Notes under the pieces: generated by a model
What the model was told of the DNA's origin: nothing
The model's database searches: none
What the model saw: the letters and a program-made list of their open reading frames with translations, nothing else
Translations under genes and position numbers: made by a program
Assembly (NCBI GenBank): GCA_944325185.1
Contig: CALUZA010000032.1
Location: 1 to 64,000 of the forward strand
Length of the DNA stretch: 64,000 bases
Direction: 5' to 3'
Source: Candidatus Gastranaerophilales bacterium
GTDB taxonomy: Bacteria; Cyanobacteriota; Vampirovibrionia; Gastranaerophilales; Gastranaerophilaceae
Part shown: piece after piece, positions 25,107 to 27,240 of the stretch
Position numbering within the stretch: position 1 is the first letter of the stretch
Layout of the letters: every line of letters starts with the position of its first letter

Positions 25107-25207
25107 CAATAAATAAATAATTAAGATTTGTAAATTTTTTTTCAAATTTTCTAATTTTTTTTAAATACATGTCGATATATAAAATAAAAAGAAAGTAAGG
25201 AATAATT

Positions 25208-26956
25208 ATGGGCAGTGAAGTTACAGCATCTTATTTGAAAAATGGTGTTACTATTGAAAATTTGTTTAATGGTAAAGTCGATCAAGAAAAAATTGAAAAA
25301 ATTAAAGATTGTGCAAAAGGCGGTTTTACTGAAGACGAACTTCAGACGCTTGAAGCCGATGGCATTGATATAGATTTATTAAAAGATAACTTTGCTGACT
25401 CAAAAACAGATGAAGATATACAAAAAAAAGCAGACGATCTGAAAAAAATATACTGCTCAGATTTAGCGGAATTTACCGGTGATAAAAATTCTTATGCAAA
25501 CCCTGAATTGCAACAATTAGAAAAAGCAATTAACAATGGGGTTTTAAAAAATCTTGCTGACGAAGGCTATACAAAAATGCAAATTATTGAAATTATTTCT
25601 ATTGCATTTCCAAATACCGGAATTCAGGCAAAAGAAGATGGAAAATATGATATACCAATAGGTCATGATGACCAAGCAAAGGATGTATATACTTCATTTA
25701 CAATTAAACTTCTTGAAGCTCTTGGTGAGGACCCCGAGGAAATATCTTCCGCAAAAGATAAATTAAATGATTTAAAAACTCAAATTGCAAAATTAGATAG
25801 CGAAATTACAACATTAGAATATAAAATTTCAACTGAACAAGATGAAATTGAAAAAGAAATGACAGAGGCAATAGATAAATCAACTGAAATTGCCGAAGAA
25901 CAAAAAGAAGAAGCTAAAAACACTGTTAATAGTGCCCTTAATGAATACGTCAATTCAAAGGGTGAGATGACCTATGAGGAATTTCAACAAGGCTTAAAAA
26001 GTGACTTGGATGGAATAGCAGGTACAACAGACAGCAAACTTTCAAGCGTAATATTAACAATGCTTAATTGTAGTGACAATATGGAAACATTAAATGCTGA
26101 CATTAAAAGTCTTGGTGGTTTATATCAAAAAAAATCTGACCTTCAAGATCAAGCTTCAAAGGCAGAATCGGAATTAAATTCATTAATTGAAGATCAGAAG
26201 AATAATGTAGCATCTGCCGATGAAGATGCCAATATGGTTGATCCTATCGGTTTTACGCATAATAATACAAGATATGACTTTTTTGTTGACAAAGATAACA
26301 ATAATGATTTATCAAATGAATCTGAGTTTCTTGGTGCTAAAAACGGATTTATGGAATTAATTAGTTTAGATACCAACAAAGATAATAAGGTTGACGCATC
26401 GGAGCTTTCTAAATCAGATATTAAAGTTGTAGTTACCCATGGTAATGGCTCGCAAAATATAAAAGATGCAAAAGAGGTCTTTGATAGCTCTGATTTTATT
26501 GATTTAGCAAGCTATAGCGAAAAGAATACTGCATTAAGCAACGGAAATCAATTGCTTGGAACATTCGATGTTCAATTTGATGATACACTCCTTGACGATA
26601 AAGGTTATCAAACCCTTGATAATATTGATTGGTTAAACGAAAATTACGATTTTTCCGATAATAAAAATTCTATAGGTTCATCTTTATCTCAAGAAGCTAT
26701 TGAAAAGAAACTTTCGGATTATACTGCTCAAGCGGATGACCTTGAAAAACGATTATTTAAAGCCCAAGGAAAAGTTGATGACAATATAGACGTAATTCAA
26801 AATAAAACAATTCAACAAGCACAAAGAAGTGCTAATTCCAAGGGAATTATTGCAAGTATGTCACTTGAAAATAATCAAAATGATAAAAATGTTCAAGAAA
26901 AACCACTTGAAGAGTTAGAAGAAATTGAAGAAATAGAAAAAGAAAAAGATATATAA
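25208..26956 (+). CDS. Coiled-coil protein with EF-hand-like calcium sites, unknown function
   Basis: I do not recognise this 582-residue acidic protein as a named family. The middle (about 180-245) is a predicted coiled coil rich in Lys, Glu and Asp; a second coil covers about 295-335. Two calcium-loop motifs follow: D361-x-D363-x-N365-x-D367 and a canonical loop D388-x-N390-x-D392-x3-D396-x2-E399. A third short coil and a Glu-rich tail end the protein. There is no signal peptide or membrane segment. AAGGAA lies 7 bases upstream of the ATG. It is probably monocistronic. EF-hands in a protein without an export signal suggest either cytosolic calcium sensing or a non-Sec export route. Confidence 0.75.
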   Translation: MGSEVTASYLKNGVTIENLFNGKVDQEKIEKIKDCAKGGFTEDELQTLEADGIDIDLLKDNFADSKTDEDIQKKADDLKKIYCSDLAEFTGDKNSYANPELQQLEKAINNGVLKNLADEGYTKMQIIEIISIAFPNTGIQAKEDGKYDIPIGHDDQAKDVYTSFTIKLLEALGEDPEEISSAKDKLNDLKTQIAKLDSEITTLEYKISTEQDEIEKEMTEAIDKSTEIAEEQKEEAKNTVNSALNEYVNSKGEMTYEEFQQGLKSDLDGIAGTTDSKLSSVILTMLNCSDNMETLNADIKSLGGLYQKKSDLQDQASKAESELNSLIEDQKNNVASADEDANMVDPIGFTHNNTRYDFFVDKDNNNDLSNESEFLGAKNGFMELISLDTNKDNKVDASELSKSDIKVVVTHGNGSQNIKDAKEVFDSSDFIDLASYSEKNTALSNGNQLLGTFDVQFDDTLLDDKGYQTLDNIDWLNENYDFSDNKNSIGSSLSQEAIEKKLSDYTAQADDLEKRLFKAQGKVDDNIDVIQNKTIQQAQRSANSKGIIASMSLENNQNDKNVQEKPLEELEEIEEIEKEKDI

Positions 26957-27039: not shown

Positions 27040-27240
27040 ATGAAAAAAGATATCCATCCCGATTACAAAAAAACAACTATAAAGTGTGTTTGCGGAAATG
27101 AAATCGAAACAGGTTCTGTTGAAGAAAACATTACAGTTGAAATTTGTAACGCTTGCCATCCGTTTTATACAGGCAATCAAAAAATTCTTGACTCTGAAGG
27201 TAGAGTTGAAAGATTTAAAAAACGTTACGAAAAAAAATAG
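27040..27240 (+). CDS. rpmE: 50S ribosomal protein L31, zinc-binding form
   Basis: This 66-residue protein is L31 of the Cys-containing type: C16, C18, C36 and C39 form the zinc site, with the start MKKDIHPDY and the conserved HPFYTG motif. L31 bridges the central protuberance of the large subunit to the small subunit head. AAAGGA lies upstream at good spacing. An overlapping frame on the plus strand (27086-27295) is a shadow. A hairpin follows before thyX. Confidence 0.96.

Follow-up and report, generated by a model that had tools for sequence, protein, structure and literature searches.

The window, that is, the whole stretch of 64,000 nt that was analysed, contains at positions 25208-26956 of the forward strand a CDS of 582 amino acids plus the stop codon, defined by ORF call and translation. 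A likely ribosome-binding site, AAGGA, was read from the sequence on the same strand at 25197-25201, 6 bases 5′ of the ATG. The open frame around this ORF measures 585 amino acids in all and an in-frame TAA lies at 25196-25198, four codons 5′ of the ATG; hence, no upstream start can give the 582-aa protein a signal peptide. The highest hydropathy over 19 residues was 0.79, a value at which our hydropathy test classes the protein as soluble and without a Sec signal, and none of 53 distinct N-termini of the family (with the starts as set by ORF calling) was signal-like by hydropathy. The absence of a signal peptide, which the original prediction had affirmed while leaving room for an upstream in-frame start, therefore holds. 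As neighbours of the gene we assume a lepA-like gene on the opposite strand and, on the other side, thyX- and prfA-like genes; a short ORF at 27040-27240, between the gene and the thyX-like one, presumably resembles ribosomal protein L31.

The encoded coiled-coil protein is soluble, has two calcium-type loops that are conserved, and ends in an acidic tail. AlphaFold, run on the whole protein with 35 family members, gave a mean pLDDT of 84.0 and a pTM of 0.43; the latter value leaves the mutual arrangement of the parts uncertain. From the N-terminus, with all the features on the forward strand, the model shows a helical region (aa 16-171, 25253-25720), two long helices (aa 177-249 and 256-337, together 25736-26218) drawn as a coiled-coil hairpin, a beta-rich domain (aa 345-482, 26240-26653) and a further long helix (aa 495-559, 26690-26884). 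The sequence ends in a Glu-rich acidic tail (aa 560-582, 26885-26953), which is poorly modelled (pLDDT <50 at residues 561-571 and 580-582). The beta-rich domain, identified by fold and profile matches as similar to the self-processing module (SPM) of Neisseria meningitidis FrpC, begins with D345-P346 (26240-26245), an Asp-Pro predicted to be the scissile one, which falls on FrpC D414-P415 in both structure and sequence alignments. By profile alignment, calcium-type loop 1 (D361-E373, 26288-26326; 13 residues, with Glu at position 13) is the counterpart of FrpC D462-E474, and loop 2 (D388-E399, 26369-26404; canonical, 12 residues) that of the FrpC loop starting at D499. W475 is the sole Trp of the protein, and no GGxGxD (RTX) repeats were found in it. 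The two EF-hand loops that had been predicted, with D388-E399 as the canonical one, are thus borne out, as are the long coiled coils and the acidic tail.

No family had been assigned to this protein and, in fact, no Pfam or NCBIfam model scored above its cut-off; the EF-hand Pfam matches were weak and under the curated cut-off, and the single sequence, searched against the PDB, had three matches, all weak and to OmpH-type chains (best E 0.0052). The family can nevertheless be assigned by fold and homology. The domain alone, modelled by AlphaFold with 42 sequences, reached a pLDDT of 95.3 and a pTM of 0.89. Foldseek with this model placed 6sjx at the top (E 9.7e-4), followed by 6sjw (E 1.5e-3), both entries of the FrpC SPM, the remaining rows having E 0.74 or worse. 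VIA-align gave for the two FrpC SPM entries Z scores of 12.3 (rmsd 3.4, 127 residues, 24% identity) and 11.4, against 4.5 for the next entry; the first residue paired was residue 5 of the model (P346), with chain residue 1 of 6sjw, as read from range ends, the only positions given. When the whole-protein model was used, the SPM was found at rank 5 with Z 12.6, after coiled-coil rows, and the Foldseek output was dominated by coiled coils (best E 0.09).

At the sequence level, a profile search of the PDB placed the FrpC entries at ranks 1 and 2 (E 1.2e-7 over 106 profile positions, and 1.3e-7), with ordinary EF-hand proteins coming next from E 3.4e-6; sequence alone is therefore not decisive, and it is the fold result that bears the weight. 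In a profile-profile comparison the family domain matched seven full-length SPMs of Cyanobacteriota, which themselves match FrpC at E 6.9e-55, with a probability of 98.1% and E 7e-14; the matched stretch starts at loop 1, leaving the Asp-Pro outside. On this evidence the domain almost certainly has the SPM-type fold. We considered aa 345-482 as an SPM-like variant and did not class it with the RTX-type SPMs, since D478, D579, two calcium sites and the Trp pair of FrpC are not conserved in it. A dockerin identity was rejected: a match was seen only in the N-terminal stretch of one relative (L040:9962-10711; E 1.1e-4, 22.7 bits versus a cut-off of 22.9), and the 582-aa protein has no such match.

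The available excerpts of PMC7078468, PMC5233953, PMC3034196 and PMC12538545 describe the FrpC module as unfolded at cytosolic calcium and folding outside the cell, where it breaks the Asp414-Pro415 bond and leaves an Asp anhydride able to link to lysines. Cleavage is stopped by D414A (excerpt of PMC7846742) and by P415A; according to PMC7078468, D478 and D579 are ligands of a fifth calcium, D478A lowers cleavage, D579A abolishes it and D579N does not, and FrpC leaves the cell by type I secretion. With this module, used as NeissLock, the present domain shares the fold, an Asp-Pro with which the domain begins, a pair of EF-hand-like loops, a position C-terminal to a cargo segment and an invariant glycine, G376, in the position of the port residue G477. 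It differs in being shorter (~140 residues versus 177) and in lacking the first half-loop and the D521 loop. Precisely, FrpC has four calcium sites (D419-G424 with D456, D462-E474, D499-D511 and D521-E532); D462-E474 and the D499 loop have counterparts here, and the other two are missing. D478 is replaced by A377 (Ala in 32 of 42 domains) and D579 by Q468 (Q in 17, N in 12 and R in 6 of 42, hence Q or N in 29), the alignment being less certain at the latter position. The W451/W519 pair, both invariant in the seven full-length SPMs, is absent. Moreover, FrpC is a large RTX protein of another phylum, with RTX repeats where this 582-aa protein has coiled coils on both sides of the domain. Among the open-licence papers listed by our literature searches, none reports an SPM in Gastranaerophilales, and the term 'self-processing module' does not occur in the five best of 77 from one of these searches; this is weak evidence of absence.

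Conservation was scored on strings of the domain, a few of which are cut copies of others and whose source proteins, being relatives, are not independent. In the first set, 53 of 57 strings had DP, three EP and one neither; in the enlarged set of 82, DP was found in 69 of the 73 scored, again with three EP and one neither, the nine unscored strings being seven large proteins and two fragments. Among 42 aligned domain rows, D345 is Asp in 40, Glu in one and a gap in one. The loop residues, whose conservation in homologues had been named as a check on the EF-hand reading, are well kept: D361, G376, D388 and E399 are invariant (42/42), E373 is Glu in 37 and Asp in five, and D392 is Asp in 36, while position 363 is gapped in four rows, so that loop 1 is shorter in some relatives. 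The seven large relatives keep the Asp-Pro in two cases and have lost the Asp in five, with the Pro invariant in all seven; for this reason the Pro may be structural, which makes the retained Asp the informative part. In 17 of the 42 domains the residue preceding the Asp-Pro (V344 here, 26237-26239) is Cys, which would put a thiol next to the predicted anhydride, and in 13 it is Thr.

At E 0.001 a search with the 582-aa protein found relatives in 26 of 58 genomes, and at 1e-20 in 27 of 288, the own genome included in both counts; this genome has one diverged paralogue of 948 aa on contig C9. Syntenic relatives occur in G023, G012, G003, G009 and G018 (two in tandem in G018), whereas the two copies of G013 lie elsewhere than the syntenic position. 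The 16 related loci in named records comprise six labelled Candidatus Gastranaerophilales, one labelled Candidatus Galligastranaerophilus and others more vaguely named, rumen or cecum being mentioned for some; no relative was found in viral contigs, nor by a single-protein scan of genome_contigs. The constant block across the family is aa 345-482, and coils and N-termini vary. Two family members of G047 (L010:1207-3963 and L030:1258-3591) carry an N-terminal EF-hand above the cut-off together with thioredoxin-like stretches in which a CxHC or CGHC motif is seen; in L010 the thioredoxin match with Pfam is under the cut-off, and in L030 the stretch was read by eye only.

A profile of the domain matched in 45 of 292 genomes of a phylum-wide draw, and in the own taxonomic family 13 of the matches lay in open frames <300 aa. 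As exported-type kin we inspected six of these 13 short relatives and seven large ones, leaving out the matches in G327 and G345. All six short ones inspected (L114, L123-L127) have a Sec-like N-terminus and the Asp-Pro, with degenerate loops; L114 has a stop codon inside the matched stretch, and an NCBIfam scan of six relatives gave no match naming the short ones. The large proteins (L116-L122) carry a homologous domain in the form of a full-length SPM and, unlike the 582-aa protein, have GGxGxD repeats in six cases out of seven (Pfam RTX repeats in two of the three scanned). That homologous domains follow Sec-like signals, and also occur in large proteins most of which have RTX repeats, fits export.

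We also considered the secretion genes. FlhA-type proteins (PF00771) were found in 57 of 58 relatives and flagellin (PF00669) in 50. The seven members of the order without a flagellin match (G010, G028, G029, G030, G033, G034 and G047) have only the lower-scoring FlhA (714.6-731 bits, versus at least 859 for the other type, the types being assigned by score and not by tree) and one FliP each (224-233 bits); two FliP are present in each of G000, G003 and G023. The split is not clean, as G006, G027, G041 and G050 have a flagellin match and no first-type gate among the matches listed. Full-length copies of the second gate type occur in 51 of the 58 genomes, so that its co-occurrence with the family is uninformative. 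We rejected the reading as a motility-linked substrate, given that family members are present in G010 and G047, where flagellin had no match. A second, basal-body-like export locus was observed in G000 (L083:14664-19993 and L088:518-3259, contig C59) and in G047 (L091:183-10381). By Pfam the G047 locus has rod-type, SLT, FliE, FliF, FliH and FlhA proteins, with one rod match just below the cut-off; in G000, Pfam identifies FliF, FliH and FlhA, and a FliE-like protein is recognised by similarity. This locus has been retained in relatives where flagellin had no match, and it may represent a distinct secretion system and not a flagellum in decay. The excerpts of PMC3787301 and PMC4040986 read incomplete flagellar gene sets as flagella loss, PMC3787301 also describing the gut types as having no type I system, and that of PMC5877343 gives both views.

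Also on contig C59 of G000, a 483-aa protein (L082:13520-14971) aligns with FlhA over the C-terminal half alone (PF00771 positions 321-656, 161.6 bits), and similar half-matches occur in many relatives. Three related proteins (L033:15576-16817, L089:2586-3560 and L089:4871-5203) have similar N- and C-terminal helices; the first two, scanned with Pfam, gave nothing above the cut-off. They look like axial or secreted parts, and one pair lies near the second export locus of G033.

The non-Sec route that had been offered as one option is thus a sound proposal, in view of the missing Sec signal and of the FlhA- and FliP-type gates in the genome, and a flagellar or type III-like gate is the most available such route. 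Export genes were not found adjoining the gene in the window, and none of 16 probe proteins matched in loci L034-L045. The 53 family N-termini, when compared with 31 ORFs of the window, are richer in STNQ (34% versus 20%) and poorer in KR (9% versus 18%), although these are related sequences, some with uncertain starts, and composition is unspecific. We consider the protein to be probably exported, and a type III-like route to be possible rather than probable.

The reading that we prefer, and to which we lean without great assurance, is that of a calcium-triggered clip, perhaps a clip-and-link, coiled-coil protein acting outside the cytosol. From the likeness to FrpC we infer calcium binding, a folding switch, cleavage, an anhydride and linking. 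At low calcium the SPM-like module would be unfolded or idle; after export, for which a flagellar or related type III gate would be the first choice, the two conserved loops would bind calcium in a calcium-rich place and the domain would fold, straining the D345-P346 bond. The side chain of D345 would then attack its own carbonyl and break the chain, and aa 1-345 would retain a C-terminal Asp anhydride, to be captured by water or by an amine such as a nearby lysine. Calcium-dependent cleavage appears somewhat more probable than its absence; we do not rate it higher, because EF-hand proteins follow closely behind FrpC in the profile search and the Asp-Pro lies outside the profile-profile match. 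Linking in vivo may occur, but we would sooner expect that it does not.

Against cleavage count the lost ligands of the fifth calcium, the two missing calcium sites out of four and the missing Trp pair. These losses would suit an inactive SPM-like scaffold, in which the fold and two calcium sites are kept and the domain, stabilised by calcium, acts as the spacer or the binding head of a coiled-coil protein that is exported, the Asp-Pro serving for folding only; the five large relatives with Pro and without Asp indicate that loss of cleavage does occur in this fold. Retention of the Asp in 69 of the 73 scored strings, with Glu in three of the other four, argues in the opposite direction, and we regard the inactive scaffold as rather unlikely.

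The cytosolic calcium sensor of the original prediction, or a cytosolic buffer, would agree with the lack of a Sec signal, the solubility and the conserved loops, and D388-E399 does share its loop residues, like the weak EF-hand matches under the cut-off, with calmodulin-like EF-hand proteins. However, the loops sit in an SPM-like beta-rich fold, with no paired helix-loop-helix and with a loop 1 of 13 residues, in a domain that starts with a conserved Asp-Pro; a calmodulin-like sensor is for this reason not the best reading. The domain is, in addition, that of an extracellular module, its homologues stand behind Sec-like signals and in RTX-repeat proteins, and the calcium affinity of the FrpC module is near 150 uM, whereas cytosolic calcium is <100 nM (excerpt of PMC7078468). 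We judge a cytosolic role improbable. Type I export, as for FrpC, would be a variant of route compatible with the clip explanation, and a HlyD-type adaptor scored above the cut-off in 15 of 58 relatives (among them G010, G013, G015 and G047). In the own genome, which is 93.9% complete so that a missed gene is possible, the best HlyD-type score was instead 68.8 bits versus a cut-off of 208.65, and the scores of G003, G009, G012, G018 and G023, all with close relatives of the gene, were also under the cut-off. Moreover, the 582-aa protein has no RTX repeats; this route seems very improbable.

The clip explanation can be extended to the order, as a conjecture that we hold as doubtful in its entirety: Gastranaerophilales would have taken clip-and-link chemistry outside the RTX/type I setting, with coiled-coil proteins that would pass a flagellum-related type III gate, be folded by calcium in the gut and cut themselves at the Asp-Pro, and whose N-terminal coil would be covalently tethered to the own surface, to a neighbour or to the host by a minimal, two-site SPM of ~140 residues. 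SPM-like domains with a kept Asp-Pro are found here in non-RTX coiled-coil proteins and in short proteins with a Sec signal, in a gut lineage of Cyanobacteriota. If active, the domain would be a smaller and divergent module for calcium-triggered protein coupling, for which NeissLock uses FrpC and FrpA, it would reveal which calcium sites the chemistry requires, and it would suggest that uncultured gut bacteria carry out covalent chemistry at their surface.
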